Assembly (NCBI RefSeq): GCF_015752205.1
Contig: NZ_JADOVG010000005.1
Coordinates: forward strand, 124,001 to 188,000
Direction: 5' to 3'
Length of the DNA: 64,000 bases
Source: Polaromonas sp. CG_9.7
GTDB taxonomy: Bacteria; Pseudomonadota; Gammaproteobacteria; Burkholderiales; Burkholderiaceae_C
Part shown: piece by piece, positions 29,064 through 63,999 of the stretch
Layout: each line of letters starts with the position of its first letter
Position numbering within the stretch: the stretch's first letter is position 1
The notes under the pieces: generated by a model
Told to the model about the DNA's origin: nothing
The model's input: only the letters and a program-made list of their open reading frames with translations
Database searches by the model: none
Position numbers and translations under genes: made by a program

Positions 29064-30257
29064 TTAAACGGCGTAGTCCGCCACAAACTTGCGGTCAATC
29101 CGGTCTTTCCAGCGCCAGACCCAGGCGCCTTCGACGCTAAGGCCGCCCCACACGGCAATTGCATGGCGACCGCCGCATGACAGCAGGTTGAGCGTGCGCT
29201 TTTGCGGTGCATAGGGCTTGAGCGGCCGGCCTTGCCATGCGGCGCGCAAATTGGCCAGCAGTGGCGGACCGGCGCGCACCGCGTACACACCGCTTCGCGG
29301 ATGCGGCGCATCAACGCGGCTGGCCACATCGCCAGCAGCAAATACCGCCGGATGGCTGGTGCTTTGCTGAAAGCCGTTGACCGCCACAAAGCCCCCTTCG
29401 TCAAGGGCCAGTCCGGTGCCAGCCAGCCATGCCGGCGCCTGAGCGCCCAAGGCCAGCAACGGCACATCGCAAGCCAGGCGCTGGCCGCTGCCCAGCTTGA
29501 TGCAGCCTGAATCCAGCCCGACGCAGGTCTCTGGCAGCACCTCGATCCGAAGGCGTTGCAAGGCCTTGGCAAGGCGGCGCTGCACGCCAGCCGTGTAACT
29601 GGCACCCGGCGGATTCGCGCCACTGAGCAATGTCACCCGGCTGCCCGGCGCAAACGACGCACCTTTTAACGCATGGGCAGCGGCCATGGCCAGTTCCAGC
29701 CCCGCCGCACCTGCGCCCACCACCACCAAGTGAATTTTTTTCTGTCGCGCCACCGCCATCACCCGGGGCCAGAGCTGGCCGAAGGCTTCGATGGGTCGCA
29801 CGAACAAGGCATGCTCTCGCGCGCCGGGCATTTTTTCCTCAATCTGTTGGCGGTCCATGACCGGGCCGGTGTTCAGGCTCAGCCAGTCGTAAGGCAGGGT
29901 CGCGCCACTGGCCAGGGTCACGCTGCGCGCTTCAGCATTAATGCCCGCCGCACTGCCTTGCACATAGCGCGCGCCGCAGCGGGCAAGCAGCCCCTCAAGC
30001 GGAATCATGCAGTTGTCCAGCGTGTAATGCCCGGCGACAAACCCCGGCACCATGCCGGAATACAGCTGGCGCGCATGTGGCGCGACCACCGTGATGGCCA
30101 GATCGGCCGGCCGGTCTTGCGCCAGGCCTTGCAGCACATGCACGTGCGCATGGCCGGCGCCCAGCAGCACCAGATGCCGCTTGACGGCTGGCGCAGCGCT
30201 TGCCGAGAAAAGGCCTGCGTCTTCAGCAGGCTTGGCTTTGCTTGCAGCCTGGGTCAT
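29064..30257 (-). CDS. FAD-dependent pyridine nucleotide-disulfide oxidoreductase, SelD N-terminal-partner type
   Basis: This 397-residue flavoprotein starts its FAD fold with HLVLLGAGHAHVHVL at about 28-42. GAGHAHV is characteristic of the family found fused N-terminal to selenophosphate synthetase (Nterm_to_SelD), and also of NDH-2-like proteins. A second nucleotide fold VVVGAGAAGLELA lies near 173, and the FAD motif VFAAGDVA near 306. Here it is stand-alone: there is no SelD domain or selD gene in the window. It overlaps the DUF3047 gene by ATGA and belongs to the minus-strand operon divergent from arsS. The electron acceptor is unknown. Confidence 0.82.
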   Translation of the reverse strand: MTQAASKAKPAEDAGLFSASAAPAVKRHLVLLGAGHAHVHVLQGLAQDRPADLAITVVAPHARQLYSGMVPGFVAGHYTLDNCMIPLEGLLARCGARYVQGSAAGINAEARSVTLASGATLPYDWLSLNTGPVMDRQQIEEKMPGAREHALFVRPIEAFGQLWPRVMAVARQKKIHLVVVGAGAAGLELAMAAAHALKGASFAPGSRVTLLSGANPPGASYTAGVQRRLAKALQRLRIEVLPETCVGLDSGCIKLGSGQRLACDVPLLALGAQAPAWLAGTGLALDEGGFVAVNGFQQSTSHPAVFAAGDVASRVDAPHPRSGVYAVRAGPPLLANLRAAWQGRPLKPYAPQKRTLNLLSCGGRHAIAVWGGLSVEGAWVWRWKDRIDRKFVADYAV

Positions 30258-31042
30258 GGGGACAGCGTGACATCGCCCACGTAACCCAGACTTTGGCCGC
30301 CGGTGTTGTCCGAATCGCCGCCTACCAGCAGGCTTTGCAAGGGCGGCAAGGTTGCGGACTCCTGACCGAAGGCGCGTTGGAAATCAGCGGCCAGGTCTTG
30401 CGAGTGCGTGATCCATTGGCCCAGATGCTGCTCGCCGCTGTCAGCCACGATCATGCGCATGCGGTGCGTGTAGGCGTTGTCGAGCAGGGTGCCGGCCGGC
30501 AGGCTGGCGTCCCAGACATAGCACAAGGTGGCGGCTGGCAGGTTTTCGCCACTCACCGAGCGGGCAACCCGCATCATGTTGCGCTCGACAAAGCCAAGCT
30601 GCTCCAGCGGCATGTTGAACAGGGCGCAGACCTTGAGCGGCGTGTCATCGCCGGATTTTTGCCGCAGGTCGGTGCCGCGCAGCGGTTGGTCAAGCCGCCA
30701 GCGCCAGCGCAGTTTCATGCCAGGCACCAATGCAAGGTCTGGCAAGTCATGCACCAAATTGGCATAGGAATGGTCAGTCTGCACCCGCAATACCGGGCGG
30801 CCGTCCATGGGCACCAGGTCAAAGCGGGTGGGCGGTTTGGCTACCTTGGGCAGGCCAACCACGCGCCAGGGTGATGGTGGCACCGTACCGCTGGCGGATG
30901 AGAAAGGATGCAGATTCGCCGTCATTGCGACAGAATCTTGAGCAAATACCGGATTCGCGCATATCCACAGGGCACTTGCAGCTATGAAAATAGTAGCGCT
31001 TGAAAAATAAGGTATGCGCCTTGTGGCGGGATGCAGTGTCAT
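30254..31042 (-). CDS. Secreted DUF3047-family protein
   Basis: This is a 262-residue exported protein of unknown function. The signal peptide includes SSATIFIAASALW, encoded by a copy of the dispersed repeat, and cleavage is expected near VFAQD. The mature part has family features: MKLRWRWRLDQPLRGTDLR, DDTPLKVCALF, and near the C-terminus SDNTGGQSLGYVGDVTLSP. The ATG at 31042 follows the stop of the upstream gene by one base; the longer frame start (31120) would overlap that gene. Its stop overlaps the next gene start by ATGA, so all three genes are tightly coupled. Confidence 0.8.
   Translation of the reverse strand: MTLHPATRRIPYFSSATIFIAASALWICANPVFAQDSVAMTANLHPFSSASGTVPPSPWRVVGLPKVAKPPTRFDLVPMDGRPVLRVQTDHSYANLVHDLPDLALVPGMKLRWRWRLDQPLRGTDLRQKSGDDTPLKVCALFNMPLEQLGFVERNMMRVARSVSGENLPAATLCYVWDASLPAGTLLDNAYTHRMRMIVADSGEQHLGQWITHSQDLAADFQRAFGQESATLPPLQSLLVGGDSDNTGGQSLGYVGDVTLSP
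30978..31002 (-). repeat. Dispersed repeat copy within the DUF3047 signal peptide
   Basis: On the minus strand this reads CAAGCGCTACTATTTTCATA followed by GCTGC. In the gene frame it encodes SATIFIA, forming the hydrophobic core of the signal peptide. Confidence 0.75.
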
Positions 31043-31043
31043 G

Positions 31044-33206
31044 TCAGCTTCGTTTCCAGTCGTGGTATTTACGCACCCATTCAAGCAGCCGCACGGGTTG
31101 GTGCGCACGCTTCCACTCACCGGCTGCGTACTTATTGGCTTCCGACAGCGTTGGGTAGGTGTGAATGGTCGAGAGAATCTTGTTCAGCCCCAGCCCGTGC
31201 CGCATTGCCAGCACGTACTCGGCCAGCAAATCGCCGGCGTGGGTGCCGACGATGGTGACGCCAAGGATTTTGTCCTTGCCCGGCACGGTCAGCACTTTGA
31301 CGAAACCGCGCGCTTCGCTGTCGGCAATGGCGCGGTCCAGGTCGTCGATGTTGTATTTCGTGACCTCGTAAGCCACGCCTTTTTCGGTCGCCTCGGCTTC
31401 GCTCAAGCCCACGCGCGCGACTTCCGGGTCAATGAAAGTGGTCCACGGAATCACCGAGTAGTCGGCCTTGAACAGCCTGAACTCGCCAAACAGCGCATTG
31501 ACCGCGGCGTACCACGCCTGGTGGGCCGCCACGTGCGTCAGCTGGTAAGGCCCGGCCACGTCGCCAGCCGCATAGATATTGGGGTAGATGGTCTGCAAAT
31601 AGTCGTTGGTGGGCACCGTGCGTTCGGTCGAAATGCCGAGCTCTTCAAGGCCGTAACCGGTCAGGCGCGCCGCGCGGCCGACGGCGCAGATCAGCTGGTC
31701 GAATTCAATGGCGATTTCCTGGTCCTGGTGCGTCACCCACAGGGTTTTGACGTCGCCCATTTTCTCGCAGCGCAGCGCCTTGTGGCCGGTCAGCACCTGC
31801 ACGCCGTCGGCAGCCAGTGCATCGCGGACCAGCGCAGACACTTCTTCGTCCTCACGGCCCATCAGGCGCGGCGCCATTTCCACCTGCTTGACCTCAGCGC
31901 CCAGCCGCGCAAAGGCCTGCGCCAGTTCGCAGCCAATCGGCCCACCACCCAGTATCACCAGGCGTCGCGGCACGGCGTCCAGCTGGGCAAACACGTCCCA
32001 CAGCGTGTCGCTGGTGACATAACCCACGTCGTCCAGACCGGGCAGCGGCGGCACGAATGGCCGGGCGCCGGCAGCGATCACGATGCTGCGGGTGGTCAGC
32101 GTTTGCGTGCCGCCACCGTTCAGCGCAATTTCCACCGTCCACGGGTTGACGATGCGGGCGTGGCCCTGAAGCACTTCGACGCCCAGGCTGGTGTAGCGCT
32201 CGACGCTGTCGTGTGGGGCAATGGCACGGATCACATCCTGAATCCGCTGCATGATGGCCTTGAAGCTGAACTCTGGCGTGACGTTGCTCAAGCCATAGTT
32301 GGCACCGTGCCGCATCTGCTGCGCCAGCTTGGCGCTGCGGATCAAGGCCTTGGACGGCACGCAGCCGTAGTTCAGGCAGTCGCCGCCCATCTTGTGCGCT
32401 TCCACCAGCGTCACCCTGGCCTTGACCACGGCGGCAATGTAGGCCGACACCAGCCCGCCCGCGCCGGCGCCAATCACCACCAGGTTGCGGTCAAAACTTG
32501 ACGGTTTCACGCCCTTCCAGCGCGCATACACCTTGCGGCGCTTGACCAGCGCCAGCACCTTGCTGACCGCCAGCGGCAGCAGCCCCAGCAGCACGAATGA
32601 GCCAATCAGCCCCGGCGACAAGATCGACTGCAGCGAGTCGATCTTGGCGATTTGCGTGCCTGCGTTCACATAGGCCACGGTGCCGGCGAACATGCCAACC
32701 TGGCTGACCCAGAAGTAAGTCCAGACCTTGATGCGCGTCAAGCCCATGAGCAAATTGAGTGCAAAAAACGGCACAACCGGGATCAGGCGCAGGGAAAAAA
32801 GATAGAAAGCGCCTTCTTTTTCAATGCCCTTGTTGATGTCATCCAGGCGCCGGCCAAAGCGCGCCTGAATCGTATCTCGTAGCAGGTAGCGCGCCACCAG
32901 CATGGCCAGCGTGGCACCCAGGGTCGAAGCCAGCGACACCACCACTGTGCCCAGAACCAGCCCGAAACTGGCACCGCCTGCCAGCGTCAAAATGGCGGCT
33001 CCCGGCAACGACAGCGCAGTCACGGCCACATAGACCGCAAAAAATACCAGCGTCACCATCACCGGCCGTTCGTTGAACAGCGTCGTGAACGATGCCTGGC
33101 TGTCCTTGATGAACGCCAGGCTGAAATAGCGGCCCAGGTCCAGTACGAAAAAAGCGATGATGGCGGCCAGCAGCAAGGCGGCGATCAGAAGTTTGCGCAG
33201 ATTCAC
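31044..33206 (-). CDS. Fusion of a VTT/TVP38 membrane domain with a mercuric reductase-like FAD disulfide oxidoreductase
   Basis: This 720-residue protein has two parts. Residues about 1-225 are a VTT/DedA-like (TVP38/TMEM64) membrane domain, with [17 protein letters not shown] and [18 protein letters not shown]. From about 240 on it is a class I disulfide reductase: FAD motif [14 protein letters not shown] (243-256), redox pair C277/C282 in [17 protein letters not shown] motif [14 protein letters not shown], and the C-terminal HTYPTLSE with the catalytic His-Glu pair. It lacks the C-terminal vicinal cysteines of MerA, so mercury is not a likely substrate. It is first in the minus operon, divergent from MTA phosphorylase and arsS. 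An envelope-linked thiol or metalloid redox role is inferred. Confidence 0.88.
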
Positions 33207-33435
33207 GGTGATCCTTGAGGTTTATTCTTTTTTTGCGTCGGACCAAGAGGTGATTTTTACAAAAAAAAACGATTCTCCGTGTAGGAGGAAGTCCAGTTCG
33301 CCTGCCAACAGAGCAAAGGGACTTTATCCCAGGAGCCGCCTGCTGCTTGACAACTCGGACAGAATTAAAGGCGAACCGACACATACTCCGTCTCAGAACG
33401 CTGAAACGGCCACACTTCAAACAGGAATTCAAAGC

Positions 33436-34314
33436 ATGAACCAGGCATTGGTCGGCATCATCGGAGGCAGCGGTCTTTACCAGATGGACGCGCTGGAAGG
33501 CGCGCAAGAGCAGGTTATCAGCACGCCGTTTGGCGCTCCGTCCGACGTGCTGGTCACCGGCCGTGTGCATGGCGTACCGGTGGCTTTCCTGGCCCGGCAT
33601 GCGCGCGGCCACCGTCTGCTGCCCTTTGAAGTGCCCTACCGCGCCAACATCCATGCAATGAAGCAGTTGGGCGTGCGCTACCTGCTGTCGGTGTCGGCCG
33701 TGGGTTCACTGAAAGAAGACTTCCGGCCACTCGACATGGTGCTGCCCGACCAGTTCATTGACCTGACCAAACGCCGCGAAAGCACATTTTTTGGCCAGGG
33801 CGCGGTGGCCCATGTGTCGATGGCGCAACCGGTCTGCCCGGCAACCGCCGGCGTGCTGGCGCAGGCAGTGCGCAACGTTCTGGCACTCGAGGCGCCCGGC
33901 CACGGCGTGACGCTGCACGAAGGCGGTACCTATGTGTGCATTGAAGGCCCGCAATTTTCCAGCCTGGCTGAATCGAACTGGTACCGCAGCATGGGCGGCG
34001 GCGTGATCGGCATGACCAACATGCCCGAAGCCAAGCTGGCCCGTGAGGCGCAAATCGCCTACACCACGCTGGCACTGGTGACCGACTTTGACTGCTGGCA
34101 CCCGCGCGAGGCGCATGTGAGCGCCGACATGGCGCTGGCCAACCTGTTCAAGAACGCCGGCCGGGCACAGCAGGTTGCCAGTGAAGCCATTCGGCTGCTG
34201 GGCGCCAGGCAGCCTGCGAGTGAAGCGCACACGGCCCTTAAAAACGCGCTGGTGACCCAGCCTGACGCCATGGCGCCCGAGGTGCGTGCGCGCCTTTCTG
34301 CATTGCTGGGCTGA
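33436..34314 (+). CDS. mtnP: S-methyl-5'-thioadenosine phosphorylase (MTAP family)
   Basis: This 292-residue purine nucleoside phosphorylase of the MTAP class has [20 protein letters not shown] at residues 54-73, the phosphate and base region [18 protein letters not shown] at 163-180, [13 protein letters not shown] at 193-205, and DFDCWH at 217-222 with the adenine-binding Asp. The ATG at 33436 gives the normal length. MTAP releases adenine from 5'-methylthioadenosine by phosphorolysis. It is the first gene before arsS (31-base gap), so a 5'-modified adenosine made by ArsS is a possible natural substrate; plain methionine salvage is the alternative. Confidence 0.9.
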
Positions 34315-34345
34315 ACTTTTCGGCCGCTCAACGACCCATAGACTT

Positions 34346-35308
34346 ATGCACGCCACCTTACCCCTGCTCAAAAAAATCCAGTTCCCGGCGATTGACCGCT
34401 CGCGTCTAGACACGCTGCAGGTCAACCTGGGCTACAAATGCAACCAGAGTTGCGTGCACTGTCACGTCAACGCCGGGCCCAACCGCACCGAGATGATGGA
34501 CGCGGACACCATGGCCCTGATTCCCGAAGTGCTGACGGCGCGCGGCCTTTCCACGCTGGACCTGACCGGCGGTGCGCCCGAGTTGCACGACGGTTTTCGC
34601 GGCCTGGTGCGCGCTGCGCGGGCGCAAGGCGTGCGCGTCATCGACCGCTGCAACCTGACGATCCTTTTCGAGCCGGGCCAGCAAGATCTGGCGCAATTCC
34701 TGGCCGATCAGCAAGTCGAGGTTGTGGCCTCCATGCCCTGCTATTCAGCCGCCAACGTCGACAAGCAGCGCGGCGACGGCGTGTTTGACCTGAGCATTGC
34801 CGCGCTGCAGCAGCTCAATGCACTGGGCTATGGGCAACCCGGCTCGGGCCTGGTGCTGAACCTGGTTTACAACCCGCAGGGCGCTTCGCTGCCGCCCGAG
34901 CAGCAAACGTTGCAAGCCGATTACAAGCGCGAGTTGCTGGCCCATTTCGGCATCGTCTTCAACGAGTTGTTTGCGCTGACCAACATGCCGATCCAGCGCT
35001 TTGGCTCCACGCTGGTGTCCAAGGGCTCGTTTGACAGCTACATGGAGCTGCTCAAAAGCAGCTACCAGCCGCAGAACCTGCCCGGCGTGATGTGCCGCAG
35101 CACGGTCAGCGTCGACTACCAAGGCTGGCTGTCGGACTGCGACTTCAACCAGCAGCTCGGCCTGCCACTGGGCAACTCCGGCGTACAAAGGCATTTGCGC
35201 GACCTGCTGACGACCAGCCTGGACGGCAAAGCCATCCGTGTGGCGGGACACTGCTACGGCTGCACGGCCGGCCAGGGCAGCAGCTGTGGCGGCGCGCTGG
35301 AACACTGA
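34346..35308 (+). CDS. arsS: Arsenosugar biosynthesis-type radical SAM enzyme ArsS (rSAM/selenodomain family)
   Basis: This 320-residue radical SAM protein binds a 4Fe-4S cluster through C32-x3-C36-x2-C39 (KCNQSCVHCH). The C-terminal Cys-rich region (GHCYGCTAGQGSSCGG, with C303, C306 and C314) is the hallmark of the family once called radical SAM/selenodomain and now ArsS. Characterised ArsS joins the 5'-deoxyadenosyl group of SAM to dimethylarsenite to start arsenosugar synthesis. Here all key positions are Cys; there is no in-frame TGA. The gene is followed by the two glycosyltransferase families known to travel with it. No arsM methyltransferase is in the window. Confidence 0.88.
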   Translation: MHATLPLLKKIQFPAIDRSRLDTLQVNLGYKCNQSCVHCHVNAGPNRTEMMDADTMALIPEVLTARGLSTLDLTGGAPELHDGFRGLVRAARAQGVRVIDRCNLTILFEPGQQDLAQFLADQQVEVVASMPCYSAANVDKQRGDGVFDLSIAALQQLNALGYGQPGSGLVLNLVYNPQGASLPPEQQTLQADYKRELLAHFGIVFNELFALTNMPIQRFGSTLVSKGSFDSYMELLKSSYQPQNLPGVMCRSTVSVDYQGWLSDCDFNQQLGLPLGNSGVQRHLRDLLTTSLDGKAIRVAGHCYGCTAGQGSSCGGALEH

Positions 35309-35315
35309 ACGCGCC

Positions 35316-35999
35316 ATGACGCCCGTCCGCCTGTCCGTGGTGATTCCTGCCCTGAACGAGGCGGCTGGCATGTCGGCCACACTGCAGGCACTGGCGCCAA
35401 TGGCGGCACGCGGCGCGCAACTGCTGGTGGCTGACGGCGGCAGCGTTGATGGCACTGCAACTTTGGCGCAGGCTGGCGGCGCGCAAGTAGTCCACGCCCC
35501 GCGCGGCCGTGCGCTGCAGATGAACGCGGGCGCTCAGAAGGCCAACGGAGGCATCCTGCTGTTCCTGCATGCCGACACCCGGCTGCCGCCAGAGGCCGAC
35601 CGCTTGATTACCCTGGCACTTGCCAACGGCGCGCAAGTCTGGGGTCGTTTTGATGTGTGCATTGAAGGCCGGCCCCGAATGCTGCGCGTGATTGCCGCAT
35701 TCATGAACTGGCGCTCGCGCTTGACCGACATTGCGACCGGCGATCAGGCGCTGTTCATGACCCGCGCCGCATTCGACGCCGTCGGCGGATTCCCGGTCCA
35801 GCCGCTGATGGAAGACATCGAGATGTCAACCCGGCTGCTGAAAATTTCGCGTCCTGCCTGCCTGCGCGCACGCGCCATCACCTCGGGCCGGCGCTGGGAA
35901 ACGCAGGGCGTGTGGCGCACGGTGCTGCTGATGTGGCGACTGCGCCTGGCCTACTGGCGCGGTTCGACGCCCGAGCGGCTGGCCGCGCTGTACCGGTGA
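35316..35999 (+). CDS. Family 2 glycosyltransferase, rSAM/selenodomain-associated (TIGR04283 type)
   Basis: This 227-residue GT-A fold transferase has RLSVVIPALNEAAGM at the N-terminus, the nucleotide-sugar region VADGGSVDGT and the DxD-like FLHADTRLP near residue 85. The acceptor region TGDQALFMTRAAFDAVGGFP and MEDIEMSTRL follow. It starts 7 bases after arsS; the in-frame start inside arsS is rejected. The family is named for its co-occurrence with radical SAM/selenodomain proteins. It could attach the ArsS-derived sugar to an acceptor. Confidence 0.86.
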   Translation: MTPVRLSVVIPALNEAAGMSATLQALAPMAARGAQLLVADGGSVDGTATLAQAGGAQVVHAPRGRALQMNAGAQKANGGILLFLHADTRLPPEADRLITLALANGAQVWGRFDVCIEGRPRMLRVIAAFMNWRSRLTDIATGDQALFMTRAAFDAVGGFPVQPLMEDIEMSTRLLKISRPACLRARAITSGRRWETQGVWRTVLLMWRLRLAYWRGSTPERLAALYR

Positions 36000-36006
36000 T
36001 GCGGCC

Positions 36007-36651
36007 ATGACCCGTCTGGTGGTGTTTGCCAAGGTGCCGCAGGCCGGAGTGGCCAAGACACGGCTGATTCCGGCTTTGGGAGCCGAGGGCGCGGCAACCC
36101 TGGCGCGGCGCATGCTGTGCCACACGCTGTCACAGGCACTGGCTGCAAACGTGCAGGCGGTGGAGTTGTGCATGAGCCCGGCGCCGTCCGATGCAGCATG
36201 GCATGCAGTAGCGTTGCCCCTCGCCATCGAGCGCAGCGATCAGGGCGACGGTGACCTCGGCGCGCGCATGGGCCGGGCAATGGCCCGTGCCTTGGCGCAG
36301 CAGCAGGGTCCGGTCCTGCTGATGGGCACGGACTGCCCGGCGCTGAGCAGCGCCCACATCGCCGAAGCCGGCCGCCAGCTCGAACAACACGACGCCGTAG
36401 TGGTGCCGGTGGCCGATGGCGGCTATGTGCTGATTGGTTTGCGGGCGCCCTGCCCCGGCCTGTTCACCGACATGGCCTGGAGCACGCCGGTGGTGGCGGC
36501 CGAAACCCTGCGCCGCATGGCAAGCCTGGGCCTGCGTGTGTGGCAAGGCCCGCAGTTGCATGACATCGACGAGCCGGCAGACCTGGCACACCTGCCCGCG
36601 GCTTTCACGAATCCGCCATTCCTTGAAAACAACAAGCCCTTGGCGCAATAA
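36007..36651 (+). CDS. Transferase of the DUF2064 / rSAM-selenodomain-associated type (TIGR04282)
   Basis: This 214-residue GT-A-like protein resembles nucleotidyltransferases: VVFAKVPQAGVAKTRLIPAL at residues 5-24 is a nucleotide-binding loop like that of CofC and MobA proteins. LLMGTDCPALSSAHI and VVPVADGGYVLIGL are family signatures. The start is 7 bases after the previous gene. It may activate a sugar 1-phosphate to an NDP-sugar. With MTAP producing a ribose 1-phosphate, that order would make biochemical sense, but this is inference. Confidence 0.86.
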   Translation: MTRLVVFAKVPQAGVAKTRLIPALGAEGAATLARRMLCHTLSQALAANVQAVELCMSPAPSDAAWHAVALPLAIERSDQGDGDLGARMGRAMARALAQQQGPVLLMGTDCPALSSAHIAEAGRQLEQHDAVVVPVADGGYVLIGLRAPCPGLFTDMAWSTPVVAAETLRRMASLGLRVWQGPQLHDIDEPADLAHLPAAFTNPPFLENNKPLAQ

Positions 36652-36664
36652 ATACGGGCATTAG

Positions 36665-36684
36665 CCGCTTCGTTTTCCATAGCG
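36665..36684 (+). repeat. Degenerate dispersed repeat copy
   Basis: CCGCTTCGTTTTCCATAGCG keeps the CGCT, TTTTC and CATAGC parts of the repeat. It lies in the 110-base gap before the PhnD-like gene. Confidence 0.45.
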
Positions 36685-36761
36685 TTTTCATTCCAGCAGA
36701 AAATTATCTGCTCACCCCATCCTGCCGGATTACCGTTCTTTTTTTCATCTGGAGTCAGCCC

Positions 36762-37625
36762 ATGCGCGTCATCACCCAACTCATCATCACCCTGTTTTTC
36801 GGGTTCACCGCGGCGAGCGCCATGGCCGAGGAACCGCTGAAACTCGGAGTTGGACTTTTCCAGCCCAACAAGGACAAAAACGACGCCACCTACCGTCCAT
36901 TGGCCGCGTATCTCGCGGACAAGCTCGGGCGCACGGTCGAATTGCGCACCGTCGACAGCTGGGAAGGCCTTGCCAAATCGCTCGCCAGTGGTGAAACCGA
37001 CCTGGCCCTGATGGGACCGTGGGGCTACGTGCTGGCCAACCAGCAAGCCGGTGCCCAGGTGGTTTCCACCATCCTCTACGACGGCAAGCCGGAGTATTTC
37101 GGCATCATGGTCACCCACCCCGATTCGGGCATCAAGAGCCCCAAAGACCTGAAAGGCCGCACCTTCGCCTTTGGCGATAAAGGCTCCACTTCCGGCTATC
37201 TGATCCCCCTGCACTACTTCATGACGCAGGGGATTGACCCTGAAACCTATTTCAGCAAGGTTCTGTACACCAGCCATCAAGCCATAGAGACGCAAGTCAC
37301 CCGGGGCGCGCTGGATGCCGGTGCCGACTACAACCGCAATCGCAACGCAATGATCGAGCAAGGGCTGATCAAGGCCGATGCATCGCGCATCATCTGGCAG
37401 TCCGCGCCGCTGCCCAACGACGCCTTCGCCGTCAGCAGACAGCTGGCAGGCGACAAAGGCTTCGTGGTTCGCCTTCAGCAGGCGCTTGCAGGCATCGGGG
37501 ATCAACTCAAGGTCCAGCCCGACTTGCTGCCGCCGCACTACACGGGGTTTGTGAGCCGTGACAACGCCTTTTACAAGCCAATCCGGGATGCCGGACTGGC
37601 CACCGGAAAATTGCAGACCAAATAA
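36762..37625 (+). CDS. PhnD-like periplasmic binding protein (phosphate/phosphite/phosphonate family)
   Basis: This 287-residue receptor has a signal peptide (MRVITQLIITLFFGFTAASA) and the PhnD-family core: LKLGVGLFQPNKDKNDATYR, GETDLALMGPWGYVLA and GRTFAFGDKGSTSGYL, where backbone and Ser/Thr residues bind the oxyanion. The same superfamily includes phosphite and phosphonate receptors and the arsenite sensor AioX, so the ligand may be a phosphorus or arsenic oxyanion. It is followed by permease and ATPase genes with 2-base and overlapping junctions. Confidence 0.86.
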   Translation: MRVITQLIITLFFGFTAASAMAEEPLKLGVGLFQPNKDKNDATYRPLAAYLADKLGRTVELRTVDSWEGLAKSLASGETDLALMGPWGYVLANQQAGAQVVSTILYDGKPEYFGIMVTHPDSGIKSPKDLKGRTFAFGDKGSTSGYLIPLHYFMTQGIDPETYFSKVLYTSHQAIETQVTRGALDAGADYNRNRNAMIEQGLIKADASRIIWQSAPLPNDAFAVSRQLAGDKGFVVRLQQALAGIGDQLKVQPDLLPPHYTGFVSRDNAFYKPIRDAGLATGKLQTK

Positions 37626-37627
37626 GC

Positions 37628-38506
37628 ATGTGGCATCGGATTTCACGGGTCTTTGCCGGCCGTATTGGTTTTCTGACACTGGCCGTGGTGTATGCCATTT
37701 TGGTGGCTGGTTGCCTGGCCACCTTCATGGCGGAAGGCGAGTTGTCATTGGGCCGAAGGCCGCTGGAAAACCTGATTCGAACGGCAGGCGAATTTGCCCA
37801 TCCCAGTTTTCTCGATGTCTGGTTTGGCAACACTAGCCTTGAATACCGCAGCGACGACGGCACGGTCTTGCGGGTGGAAAACCGGCAGGACGTCGAGGCA
37901 AATTACCTGTCGGGGCTGGCCAGCGCCACCTGGACCACCTTTCGCATCGCGACACTCGGCTCATTATTGGGTGCCGCGCTGGCGTTGCCCCTGGGCGTAC
38001 TCACCGCCCGCAACCTGGCCGCGCCCCGCTTTTTGCGCCTGCCGGCCAAAGGCATTCTCGACATCGCACGGGCTGTCCACACGCTGGTTTTCGGTCTGGT
38101 GCTGGTCGGCATTGTCGGACTTGGACCCACGGCGGGAATACTGGCAATTGCCTTTCACTCCATGGGCACCTACGGAAAACTGTTTGCTGAATCCATCGAA
38201 GCGCTGGACATGGCGGCGATCGAAGCGGTGCGCAGCGTGGGTGCATCGCCCGCGCAGGTCTTTTTCAATGCGGTGTGGCCCGCCGCATTGCCGCAGTTTG
38301 TCGCCAGTCACCTGTACATCTGGGAGTTCAACATTCGCGACTCCACCATTCTTGGCGTCATCGGCGCAGGCGGGCTGGGCTTGCTCATCACCGAGGCAAC
38401 CTCTTTGTTTCAATGGGGCCGGCTGTCGACGGTGTTGATCGTGATCGTCCTGCTGGTGTCAAGCTTCGATGCGCTGAGCCGGCGCATCCGCAAGGCGCTC
38501 TCATGA
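37628..38506 (+). CDS. PhnE-like ABC transporter permease
   Basis: This 292-residue permease has about six membrane helices. The family stretch SGLASATWTTFRIATLGSLL lies near residue 98, and the ATPase-contact EAA loop is EALDMAAIEAVRSVGASPAQ. It starts 2 bases after the binding protein and overlaps the ATPase gene by ATGA. A long N-terminal periplasmic segment (about 35-95) is unusual for PhnE-type permeases. Confidence 0.87.
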   Translation: MWHRISRVFAGRIGFLTLAVVYAILVAGCLATFMAEGELSLGRRPLENLIRTAGEFAHPSFLDVWFGNTSLEYRSDDGTVLRVENRQDVEANYLSGLASATWTTFRIATLGSLLGAALALPLGVLTARNLAAPRFLRLPAKGILDIARAVHTLVFGLVLVGIVGLGPTAGILAIAFHSMGTYGKLFAESIEALDMAAIEAVRSVGASPAQVFFNAVWPAALPQFVASHLYIWEFNIRDSTILGVIGAGGLGLLITEATSLFQWGRLSTVLIVIVLLVSSFDALSRRIRKALS

Positions 38507-39309
38507 GCCGGGCTGCCGTGGTGCTTCTGGACGATGTCCGCTGCCCCACAGGCGGACCGATGAGCCTGCAGATCAAGCACCTGGAGATCAACCTGGGCGA
38601 ACGTGTTGCCATCGTCGGACCGAATGGCGCGGGCAAATCCACGCTGCTTCGCCTGATCAGCGGTTTTGTGCGCCCGGCCGCAGGGCAGGTGGTCGTGCTG
38701 GGCCGGTCGCTGGCCGTGCCCCTTTCGGCGCAAGGCATGCGCGCATTGCGCTGTGAAGTAGGCCAAATCATGCAGGACCTGCACCCGGTGGAGCGCTTGA
38801 GCGTCCTGGAAAATGTGCTGATCGGCTGCCTTGGCCGCACGCGCGGCTGGCGCGGCTGGACACGTTGCTTTGCGCCGCACGAGGTCGCGGCCGCAGAAAC
38901 AGCGCTGAGGGCTGTCGGCCTGATCCAGCGGGCCGGTACGCGCACCGACGCGCTGTCGGGCGGCGAACGCCAAAAAGTTGCCCTGGCCCGATTGCTGATG
39001 CAGCGGCCCCGCCTGATTCTTGCCGACGAGCCGACCGCCGCACTCGACCCGGCGGCAGCCCGCGAGGTCTGCCAACTGCTGGTCGAAGCCAGCGCGGGCG
39101 CGACTCTGGTTTGCGTCGTGCACAACCCTGCCCTGCTGCCCTTGCTGGCCAATCGCGTCATCGGCATGAAAAACGGCGGTATCGATTTCGACCTGCCAAT
39201 GGCCGAGTTGAACGGTTCTGGACTGGAGGCGTTTTACAGCCGCACAGAGCCTTGCCTGCAGGACACCGAGGCAAGGCAGCAGCTATCTGGAAACGCAGCG
39301 CTGATTTAA
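38503..39309 (+). CDS. PhnC-like ABC transporter ATP-binding protein
   Basis: This 268-residue ATPase has Walker A GPNGAGKST at residues 39-47, signature LSGGERQKVALARLL near 149, Walker B LILADEP near 170 and switch His in VVHNPALLP. The start overlaps the permease stop. An insert of charged residues GRTRGWRGWTRCFAPHE at about 108-124 is like the PhnC family. It ends the arsS operon and is followed by repeats. Confidence 0.88.
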   Translation: MSRAAVVLLDDVRCPTGGPMSLQIKHLEINLGERVAIVGPNGAGKSTLLRLISGFVRPAAGQVVVLGRSLAVPLSAQGMRALRCEVGQIMQDLHPVERLSVLENVLIGCLGRTRGWRGWTRCFAPHEVAAAETALRAVGLIQRAGTRTDALSGGERQKVALARLLMQRPRLILADEPTAALDPAAAREVCQLLVEASAGATLVCVVHNPALLPLLANRVIGMKNGGIDFDLPMAELNGSGLEAFYSRTEPCLQDTEARQQLSGNAALI

Positions 39310-57059: not shown

Positions 57060-58660
<1,601 letters not shown>

Positions 58661-62895: not shown

Positions 62896-63999
62896 ATGCA
62901 CAAAGTCGAACTCTCTTACCTCCTGAGCCCCCAGCGCGGCAAAGACGCGCTGATCCGCAACCCGATGATGGACATCCTGCATGCCGTCAGCGAGCAGGGC
63001 TCGATCTCAAAAGCCGCCAAGGCGCTCGACTTTTCTTACCGCCATGTCTGGGGCGCGCTCAAGGAATGGGAGCAGACGCTGGGCCGCAGCCTGATCGTCT
63101 GGGACAAGGGCCAGCGCGCGCGCCTGACGGAATTCGGCGAAAAGCTGCTCTGGGCCGAACGCCAGGCGCAGGCCCGGCTGGCACCGCAGATCGAAGCCCT
63201 GCGTGGCGACATCGAACGCGCTTTTTCAACCGCTTTTGACGACAACGCCCATGTGCTGACCCTGTTTGCCAGCCACGACGCGGCGCTGTCGGCGTTGCGC
63301 GACCAGACCAGCGCACACGGCCTGCACCTGGACATTCGCTTCATGGGCAGCGTCGATGCCATGGCAGCGCTGAACGACGGGCGCTGCATGATGGCCGGGT
63401 TTCACGTCCGCGACCAGCCGGCGCGCCATTCGGCGTCGGCGCGCACCTACCGCAGTTTGCTCAAGCCCGGCCTGCACAAGCTGATCGGCTTTGCACACCG
63501 CAAGCAAGGCCTGATGGTGGCCAGACATAATCCGCTGCAAATTGAGGGGCTGGCCGATCTGGCGCTGCCCGGCATGCGCTATGTCAACCGGTCCGAAGGT
63601 ACGGGAACGCGTGTACTGCTTGACGACCTGCTGGCCGAAGCCGGCCTGGCGCCGTCCGCTATTGAAGGCTACGACAGCCAGGAACCGTCGCACACCGCCG
63701 TGGCGCAAGCCATTGCCAGCGGCGCGGCCGACGCCGGCCTGGGCATCGAAGCCGCCGCCCGGGAAAAAGGCCTGGGGTTTGTGCCCCTGGTGCAAGAGCG
63801 CTACCACCTGGTCTGCCTGAACTCCGAACTGCCCACGCCGCAAGTGCAGGCGCTGATCAAGGAACTGCAAAGCGACGAATGGCAAACCACGCTGAACCAG
63901 CTGCCCGGCTACAGCGGCGCGCAGGCCGGGAGCGGCAAGGTGCTGTCCCTGCGCGCGCTGTTGCCTTGGTGGAGCTACCGCAAAGCGAAAGCGGCTTGA
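62896..63999 (+). CDS. ModE-like helix-turn-helix regulator fused to a periplasmic-binding-like domain
   Basis: This 367-residue protein ends one base before the window end. The N-terminal winged helix (about 20-95) is of the LysR/ModE type, with EQGSISKAAKALDFSYRHVW followed by GALKEWEQTLGRSLIVWDKG. Residues about 115-335 form a PBP-like domain (PF12727 type), with FASHDAAL, MRYVNRSEGTGTRVLLDDLL and ASGAADAGLGIEAAAREKGL. It therefore senses a ligand with a domain like an ABC receptor instead of the Mop domains of ModE. It is divergent from tupBCA; tungstate or molybdate is the likely ligand by context. Confidence 0.85.
   Translation: MHKVELSYLLSPQRGKDALIRNPMMDILHAVSEQGSISKAAKALDFSYRHVWGALKEWEQTLGRSLIVWDKGQRARLTEFGEKLLWAERQAQARLAPQIEALRGDIERAFSTAFDDNAHVLTLFASHDAALSALRDQTSAHGLHLDIRFMGSVDAMAALNDGRCMMAGFHVRDQPARHSASARTYRSLLKPGLHKLIGFAHRKQGLMVARHNPLQIEGLADLALPGMRYVNRSEGTGTRVLLDDLLAEAGLAPSAIEGYDSQEPSHTAVAQAIASGAADAGLGIEAAAREKGLGFVPLVQERYHLVCLNSELPTPQVQALIKELQSDEWQTTLNQLPGYSGAQAGSGKVLSLRALLPWWSYRKAKAA

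Follow-up and report, generated by a model that had tools for sequence, protein, structure and literature searches.

Of the systems described so far, the closest to the locus reported here is the ArsM/ArsS pathway of Synechocystis (Xue et al, 2019, as cited in PMC8552651; Cheng et al, 2021, as cited in PMC12159101), whose radical S-adenosylmethionine (SAM) protein belongs to the same curated ArsS family. ArsS adenosylates arsenic and the adenosyl group is retained in the product (PMC12159101). With dimethylarsenite, the product is 5'-deoxy-5'-dimethylarsinoyl-adenosine (DDMAA); a review outlines its further fate simply as glycosidation (PMC4632732). A radical SAM enzyme also forms a carbon-arsenic bond in the arsinothricin cluster arsQML (PMC8552651), but it transfers a 3-amino-3-carboxypropyl group instead of 5'-deoxyadenosyl, and the three genes include no sugar steps. 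Enzymes of the 5'-methylthioadenosine (MTA) phosphorylase (MTAP) or purine nucleoside phosphorylase (PNP) type have likewise been recruited beside modified-adenosine chemistry, as FlB and NucPNP in the fluorometabolite and nucleocidin pathways (PMC8694150), although there the chemistry is that of fluorine. The present locus occupies positions 29064-39309 of a 64,000-nucleotide stretch of Polaromonas sp. CG_9.7 DNA (the window), where a gene for MTAP adjoins arsS. Compared with the Synechocystis pathway, it adds this MTAP, two transferases, redox genes and an HtxB-like importer, and has no convincing arsM; the clusters of its relatives do contain ArsM, and DDMAA is the proposed intermediate in both cases. 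Among the listed results of searches of the open-licence PMC literature, which mostly excludes subscription papers, no paper connects arsenosugars or ArsS to a phosphorylase of MTA or of nucleosides. From comparison of sequences, we consider it probable that this is an arsenosugar-type cluster whose MTAP is specialised for the product of ArsS.

The nearness of the two genes recurs in other genomes. Among 300 genomes of the window's order (the order sample), 93 carry ArsS and 30 match the window MTAP at E<=1e-50; 14 of these 30 also have ArsS. In eight of the 14, the window included, the distance between the two genes is between 80 bp and 11 kb, a closeness that random placement would produce with a chance of 0.04-0.54% per genome; in the other six (G291, G342, G380, G456, G517, G547) they are on different contigs. 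A scan of named genomes, for which an alignment of seven linked MTAPs served as query, kept 80 loci of 588 relatives. Arsenosugar genes were found within 10 kb of MTAP in 13 of them (ArsS in 12), and these 13 include every locus, 12 in number, whose MTAP is 63% or more identical to that of the window. The hosts are a Polaromonas metagenome-assembled genome (MAG), a Hylemonella MAG, two other proteobacterial MAGs, four Microbulbifer, Pseudogulbenkiania subflava, Marinobacterium zhoushanense, Psychrobacter, Noviherbaspirillum suwonense and Caldimonas manganoxidans. ArsS was found in none of the remaining 67 MTAP loci (cyanobacteria, Acidobacteria, Nitrospirae, Chloroflexi and others) within the stretches fetched, some of them short. 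Some loci have MTAP pointing away from the arsS operon, and in others the two run in the same direction; since order and orientation vary, it is the nearness that is conserved and not one inherited order.

The phylogeny of MTAP follows this linkage closely. A quick maximum-likelihood tree was made of 123 MTAP-type proteins, with 23 linked rows; L075 was labelled linked by hand, its ArsS lying 11 kb off and beyond the stretch fetched, and L130 on account of the remaining arsenosugar genes around it, while the L091 row (interrupted at a contig end) and the crystallised protein RsfP stand outside the tree. The linked label needs two changes on it, against a mean of 21.4 for shuffled labels, and 0 of 500 shuffles were as low. 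Twenty linked rows, including the window's, form one clade of beta- and gammaproteobacteria (Shimodaira-Hasegawa-like approximate likelihood ratio support 96), which sits beside the Synechococcus/Prochlorococcus-type MTAPs (97). A second linked group comprises G569, G108 and G225 (95), G569 being on a long branch and its placement in the tree unsure. Most other MTAPs of the order fall in a separate clade of 25 rows (100), the mtnA-type. The product of mtnA is the next enzyme of methionine salvage after MTAP. At the threshold used (TIGR00512, E<=1e-40), mtnA was missing from eight of ten arsS-linked genomes, the window's included, a search that left aside the six genomes having both genes on different contigs. 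Two genomes, G522 and G386, have both kinds of MTAP, and there mtnA adjoins the second, unlinked copy: where both MTAPs exist, they split neighbourhoods, one at arsS and the other at mtnA. In all nine comparison genomes, drawn from 22 sample genomes without a linked MTAP, mtnA lies within 4 kb of the unlinked MTAP, and it stands beside such an MTAP in every one of the 11 genomes where a locus of this kind was checked. The exceptions are a second unlinked MTAP in G305 (L088), which has no mtnA in 20 kb, and L091, which ends at the contig end. The absence of mtnA, its position beside the other copy and the separation of the clades together suggest that salvage is probably not the task of the arsS-linked MTAP.

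The linked clade also differs in the region that receives the 5' substituent. In human MTAP, D220 and D222 bind the purine, and V233 and V236 contact the methylthioribose hydrophobically (PMC5738077). The pocket was compared in the 115 rows longer than 270 aa, with 8 shorter rows outside; human equivalences (V233 = A232 and V236 = A235 in the window protein, P0004) were counted by constant spacing from the Asp pair D219, D221. The 22 mtnA-type rows used are the 25-row clade minus L088, L069 and L192, three rows assigned to the remaining MTAPs, and mtnA was seen beside all 11 checked. At position 235, the V236 place, Ala is present in 20/20 rows of the linked clade, while elsewhere the residue is nearly always Val or Ile: Ile 17 and Val 5 in the mtnA-type (n=22), Val 31 and Ile 8 in cyanobacteria (n=39), and Val 17, Ile 13 and Pro 1 in 31 other rows. 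At position 232, the V233 place, the linked clade has Ala in 17/20 (Val 2, Thr 1), the mtnA-type Val in 22/22, the cyanobacterial rows Val 38 and Ile 1 (n=39), and the 31 others Val 25, Ile 3, Ala 2 and Gly 1. Thirteen positions set the linked clade apart, 232 and 235 among them. The exchange of two valines for alanines would enlarge the site of the 5' substituent, as the dimethylarsinoyl group would need.

A structure of this kind may already exist. The solved protein nearest to the window MTAP is RsfP, a putative MTA phosphorylase from Antarctic soil (4glf, 4glj; PMC3561333), which matches it at 385.1 bits (4glf, E 1.7e-114) and has Ala at both the V233 and the V236 places. The same entry matches the MTAP of the Psychrobacter locus L130 over all 297 residues (567.8 bits, E 4.3e-170), compared with 282.2 bits for one mtnA-type MTAP. 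This similarity throughout indicates that the PDB already contains an MTAP of the linked kind, its context apparently unnoticed, and the available text of PMC3561333 presents neither a link to arsenic nor a substrate assay. The active pocket of RsfP holds two rhodamine B molecules where MTA would sit (PMC3561333). The first-pass annotation had proposed that MTAP acts on the ArsS product. A clade of its own, the absence of mtnA, the changed 5' pocket and the presence of the other paralog beside mtnA give that proposal comparative support, and the reaction itself we infer.

Several observations weigh against this interpretation. The adenine-binding residues are unchanged in the window MTAP, where D219, D221 and M195 (human D220, D222 and M196, again by spacing) are present, and they are invariant save for one row at the last two. 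The alanines represent one inherited event in one clade. Alanine at the V233 place also occurs in Leishmania and trypanosome MTAPs (PMC5738077), and archaeal MTAPs align Ala there as well, so that the V236 change alone is distinctive; V236 is common even to human PNP (PMC5738077). The second linked group retains Val (two) or Ile (one) at position 235. NucPNP accepts MTA and adenosine but did not act on the bulkier sulfamoyladenosine (PMC8694150); recruitment to a pathway thus need not mean acting on the odd nucleoside. A second mtnP, which the first-pass annotation had suggested looking for, is not found in the window genome (a single match at E<=1e-35 and 1e-50), and the sole MTAP found may also serve ordinary MTA. 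The linkage is, moreover, a minority trait, present in 8/93 ArsS genomes of the order. At class level, at least three close pairs (window, G108, G225) were seen by eye among 138 ArsS genomes, and at least two more same-contig pairs, 16-31 kb apart (G264, G083), among the MTAP matches listed. A tblastn search found MTAP in 0 of 60 further ArsS loci, which were taken from 57 of the 85 order-sample genomes that have ArsS but no linked MTAP. On the mtnP-arsS adjacency, whose lack of conservation the first-pass annotation had named as a refutation, the answer is mixed: it recurs over several orders and is a minority trait. Other bearers of arsS must, on this comparison, need another or a housekeeping enzyme. 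As to a replacement nucleosidase at the MTAP-free loci, no group of unannotated open reading frames (ORFs) occurred in at least six of the 60, a weak negative, given a greedy ORF caller that had lost genes in GC-rich DNA.

We propose the following route. Dimethylated arsenic would enter the cell, here probably as dimethylarsinate via the HtxB-like importer, and would be reduced to trivalent arsenic, a reaction that the VTT-flavoprotein or the TIGR03169 protein might carry out. ArsS would add the 5'-deoxyadenosyl group to give DDMAA, a chemistry published for the family. With phosphate, MTAP would then remove adenine and leave 5-deoxy-5-dimethylarsinoyl-alpha-ribose 1-phosphate, the step to which the comparative evidence speaks. 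The TIGR04282 protein may turn this 1-phosphate into a nucleotide-activated sugar, and the TIGR04283 family-2 transferase may pass the sugar to an acceptor, for example a glycerol group. Phosphorolysis by MTAP inverts the anomeric centre and yields an alpha 1-phosphate, family-2 transferases invert again, and natural arsenosugars are beta-ribosides, the form named in the title of PMC6656958. The two inversions mean that the route predicts the natural beta-riboside, which is consistent with it and no proof. Both transferase families, TIGR04282 and TIGR04283, are already listed in NCBIfam as arsenosugar biosynthesis glycosyltransferases, so that what is new lies in MTAP and the importer. The dedicated MTAP clade offers a concrete candidate for the removal of adenine from DDMAA, with a fold already in the PDB as RsfP (4glf). 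If this is true, it suggests a rule by which automatic annotation could separate the arsenic enzyme from the MTAP of methionine salvage: Ala at the V236 place, arsS within ~11 kb and no mtnA beside MTAP. Such a rule would miss the second linked group.

The importer had been described in the first-pass annotation as a PhnD/E/C-like oxyanion importer. The permease passes the PhnE cut-off, the equivalog models of PhnD and PhnC are not reached, and the binding protein, P0008, can be narrowed to the HtxB-like/hybrid group, with a statistical tie to arsS. The nearest solved relative of P0008 is HtxB (5me4, E 6.2e-55). On this alignment, W52 (W67 in P0008) and D206 of HtxB are kept and N128, F158 and M176 are replaced by S142, H172 and Y190, so that the residues of HtxB proper are not all found; P0008 fits instead the pattern S/H/(Tyr or Phe), which marks an HtxB-like group with a modelled enlarged pocket (PMC6629693). 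HtxB shows no methylphosphonate binding (PMC5700983, PMC6629693), and a pocket for dimethylarsinate must therefore be larger, as modelled for that group. P0008 resembles the HtxB-like/hybrid proteins of these papers in its pocket and differs from them in its genomic tie to arsS. Relatives of P0008 at E<=1e-50 occur in 24/300 genomes of the order, 13 at >=67% identity (the window counted) and 11 at 35-45%. ArsS is present in 23 of these 24 genomes and in 70 of the 276 without a relative (P 4.4e-12 by genome; Fisher and hypergeometric tests throughout are uncorrected for kinship). By genus, 12/12 genera with a P0008 relative have ArsS (hypergeometric P 3.3e-7), and the lone genome without it, G513, shows 6% contamination. 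In the window, as in L121, L151, L226, L228, L230, L234 and L237, the gene is near ArsS, while the others have it at a different site of the genome. Noviherbaspirillum suwonense, one of the hosts of a linked MTAP, likewise has the importer. AioX and ArrX bind arsenite via cysteine; P0008 is without any cysteine, and its similarity to these proteins is weaker (E 3.9e-12 to 2.9e-14). Dimethylarsinate is the leading candidate ligand because it shares the R2XO2- shape of hypophosphite, methyls standing where the latter has hydrogens, and by this analogy we propose that the importer takes it up; phosphite is the main rival ligand.

Alternatively, the importer may simply scavenge phosphite or hypophosphite, its nearness to arsS being only historical, a view compatible with the proposed role of MTAP and one to which we give substantial weight, only a little short of even. 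Its nearest solved proteins are HtxB and PtxB, and at the three variable pocket sites S142, H172 and Y190 match the HtxB-like group, for which an ability to bind phosphite has been suggested (PMC6629693). The strong association of the binding protein with ArsS across genomes speaks against it, as does the lack of a phosphorus-oxidation gene among the ten window proteins scanned. The wider hypothesis that bacteria without arsM use a dedicated HtxB-like ABC importer to take up dimethylarsinate made by other organisms, and that a neofunctionalised MTAP feeds a nucleotide-sugar route to beta-arsenoribosides, is offered as a tentative conjecture, rather doubtful in its entirety; if true, the cluster would define the adenine-removal step together with a novel class of importer for organoarsenicals. 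The importer idea bears on the transfer of arsenic between members of microbial communities. As a general rule, replacement of arsM by the importer was not shown: one of 93 genomes (G276) has both a PhnD-like protein and a strong ArsM, with ~3 expected (Fisher P 0.28), and a local PhnD accompanies 0/12 loci with local ArsM and 8/75 without in 87 selected loci (P 0.59). These 87 comprise the 60 loci without linked MTAP and loci fetched for MTAP or PhnD.

No arsM is present among the ten genes, as the first-pass annotation had stated, and the genome search that it called for gave no convincing ArsM: one weak profile match (60.6 bits, C15:385-708) and, when an ArsM protein served as query, no match at E<=1e-15. 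This is the reason why import of dimethylarsinate is proposed. Taking as strong an ArsM match with E under 1e-100, with at most seven candidates scored per genome, 12/93 ArsS genomes of the order reach this level and 25/93 show any match at E<=1e-15 (hand count). In the remaining 81/93 no strong match was seen, and most bearers of arsS seem either to lack their own supply of dimethylarsenite or to have an ArsM missed by the queries. In the other direction, 12 of the 14 genomes with strong ArsM also have ArsS (Fisher P 2.3e-5). Strong ArsM was found in 6/8 genomes with linked MTAP against 6/85 other ArsS genomes (P 3.0e-5), and in 6/8 linked genomes of the order arsM lies 4.3-5.6 kb from arsS.

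These data bear on three further explanations of the cluster. The first is that MTAP merely clears by-products of radical SAM or polyamine metabolism (5'-deoxyadenosine or MTA), and adjoins arsS because of abortive cleavage by ArsS. MTAPs in general accept analogues of 5'-deoxyadenosine, this is the only MTAP found in the window genome and its adenine-binding residues are conserved. We nonetheless regard the explanation as unlikely, since the adenosyl group stays in the ArsS product (PMC12159101), the changed 5' pocket of the linked clade would be needless for such clearing, and two genomes keep a linked MTAP despite having a salvage-type MTAP with mtnA. The second, that the cluster handles selenium or another element instead of arsenic, draws on the presence of the TIGR03169 protein, on families first named rSAM/selenodomain, and on an ArsM that is unconvincing in the window genome and strong in few ArsS genomes, which leaves the supply of dimethylarsenite unexplained; ArsS is, however, a curated arsenosugar family, strong ArsM occurs in the same clusters of relatives and mostly in company with ArsS, and we hold this explanation to be quite improbable. 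The least credible of all is that MTAP is an ordinary methionine-salvage enzyme in an incidental position, for although it matches TIGR01694 above the cut-off and is the single copy found in this genome, no mtnA was found in the window genome or in 7/9 other linked genomes tested, mtnA adjoins the unlinked MTAP in 11/11 genomes where one was checked, the linked clade is distinct with a linkage that recurs over several orders, and the V236 place is Ala, not Val or Ile, in the window and throughout the clade.

The layout of the locus (Table 1) agrees with the first-pass annotation as to its ten genes, their families and their arrangement in two tightly packed divergent groups, according to the ORF list and family profile scans and with small corrections. 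On the plus strand, the gaps are 31 bp between MTAP and ArsS, 7 bp between ArsS and the family-2 transferase, 7 bp between this and the nucleotidyltransferase, 110 bp before the PhnD-like gene and 2 bp before the PhnE-type gene. The PhnE/PhnC genes on the plus strand and the SelD-partner/DUF3047 genes on the minus strand each overlap by 4 bp, and the ATG of the DUF3047 gene, at 31042, is 1 bp from the VTT stop. The window MTAP scores under the cut-offs of the narrower PRK07432 and PRK08931 models, and the ArsS match to TIGR04167 is near full length (positions 2-303 of 303). The window genome (4.15 Mb, 55 contigs, estimated 100% complete) has one ArsS above the cut-off. For the TIGR04282 protein, the nearest solved structure is 3cgx, a 'putative nucleotide-diphospho-sugar transferase'. 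No NCBIfam equivalog scored above its own cut-off for the VTT-flavoprotein fusion among the best 25 of 52 matches. The 229-bp divergent region contains no match to a sigma-70 consensus and no convincing inverted repeat, and promoter, terminator and repeat scans of it gave nothing exceeding chance. Far from the arsS cluster, two ORFs at window positions 57060-57863 and 62896-63999 resemble ModE-type regulators by eye.

Table 1. Features of the arsS locus, in window coordinates.
Feature	Position	Strand	Basis
TIGR03169 FAD/NAD(P) oxidoreductase, 'SelD partner-like', 397 aa	29064..30257	-	345.2 bits vs cut-off 310
DUF3047 protein	30254..31042	-	above Pfam cut-off
Fusion of VTT membrane domain and MerA/dihydrolipoamide-dehydrogenase-like flavoprotein, 720 aa	31044..33206	-	profile matches
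Divergent intergenic region, 229 bp	33207..33435	.	gap between minus- and plus-strand groups
MTAP of arsS-linked clade, proposed DDMAA phosphorylase, 292 aa	33436..34314	+	TIGR01694 302.0 bits vs cut-off 274.85
A232-A235 codons of MTAP P0004 (A230, A233 from ATG), human V233 and V236 places	34123..34134	+	spacing to adenine-binding Asp pair
ArsS, arsenosugar-biosynthesis radical SAM protein (TIGR04167 + DUF3641)	34346..35308	+	455.7 bits vs cut-off 300
ArsS CX3CX2C radical SAM cluster motif, CNQSCVHC	34439..34462	+	motif present
TIGR04283 family-2 glycosyltransferase	35316..35999	+	269.7 bits vs cut-off 182
TIGR04282 (DUF2064) CofC/MobA-like nucleotidyltransferase	36007..36651	+	204.3 bits vs cut-off 134
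PhnD-like periplasmic binding protein P0008, HtxB-like/hybrid group	36762..37625	+	subfamily TIGR01098 158.9 bits vs 112.05; under PhnD equivalog cut-off
PhnE-type permease of importer	37628..38506	+	232.9 bits vs cut-off 216.7
PhnC-like ATPase of importer	38503..39309	+	under PhnC cut-off

The 60 further ArsS loci contain the VTT-flavoprotein in 47 (43 at >=45% identity), TIGR04283 in 43 (41), TIGR04282 in 38, DUF547 in 27, a metallophosphoesterase-like protein in 21, DUF3047 in 20, the SelD-partner in 18 and ArsM in 5, with one weak match in addition. Among the families of the window, the VTT-flavoprotein is the commonest companion, in 70 of the 87 selected loci; within 10 kb of ArsS, TIGR04282 is found in 61 of these, TIGR04283 in 66 and TIGR03169 in 31. 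The N-terminus of the DUF3047 protein resembles, as judged by eye, a signal peptide, and the protein is probably periplasmic. DUF3047 proteins of 30 loci have invariant Trp and Asp residues in common; their predicted fold is a beta-sandwich weakly like CBM4 carbohydrate-binding modules, the fold search giving weak CBM4-like matches only, and from this model a periplasmic sugar-binding role is possible. A 714-residue ORF at L090, considered as a SelD fusion, was taken as an over-extended frame, with DUF3047 matches under its first part.

Three further observations concern loci outside the window. A protein of ~320 aa is found no more than 10 kb from ArsS, and beside the importer, in 29 of the 87 selected loci, for example at L232:12013-12945, and also in L121, L122, L151, L224, L226, L228, L230, L234, L235, L237, L239, L240, L312, L319, L320, L325, L336 and others; it was not found in the window's cluster. 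Scans against Pfam (three members) and NCBIfam (one member) gave no match, and the predicted fold is that of a metallophosphoesterase, nearest to the Ap4A hydrolase SapH, with altered motifs and four invariant cysteines. It occurs in 0/12 loci with strong ArsM against 29/75 others (P 0.007, selected set). The Psychrobacter sp. 72-O-c locus (L130:9929-18124) contains MTAP, ArsM, both transferases, DUF547, the VTT-flavoprotein and the SelD-partner, with no ArsS in 20.8 kb. In G417 (L374:8620-12025) and G288 (L375:7957-13646), genomes without an ArsS match, ArsM is accompanied by divergent homologues of TIGR04282 and TIGR04283 and by a radical SAM protein other than ArsS, and L375 also has the VTT-flavoprotein; the gene content of these two loci possibly represents another organoarsenical pathway.

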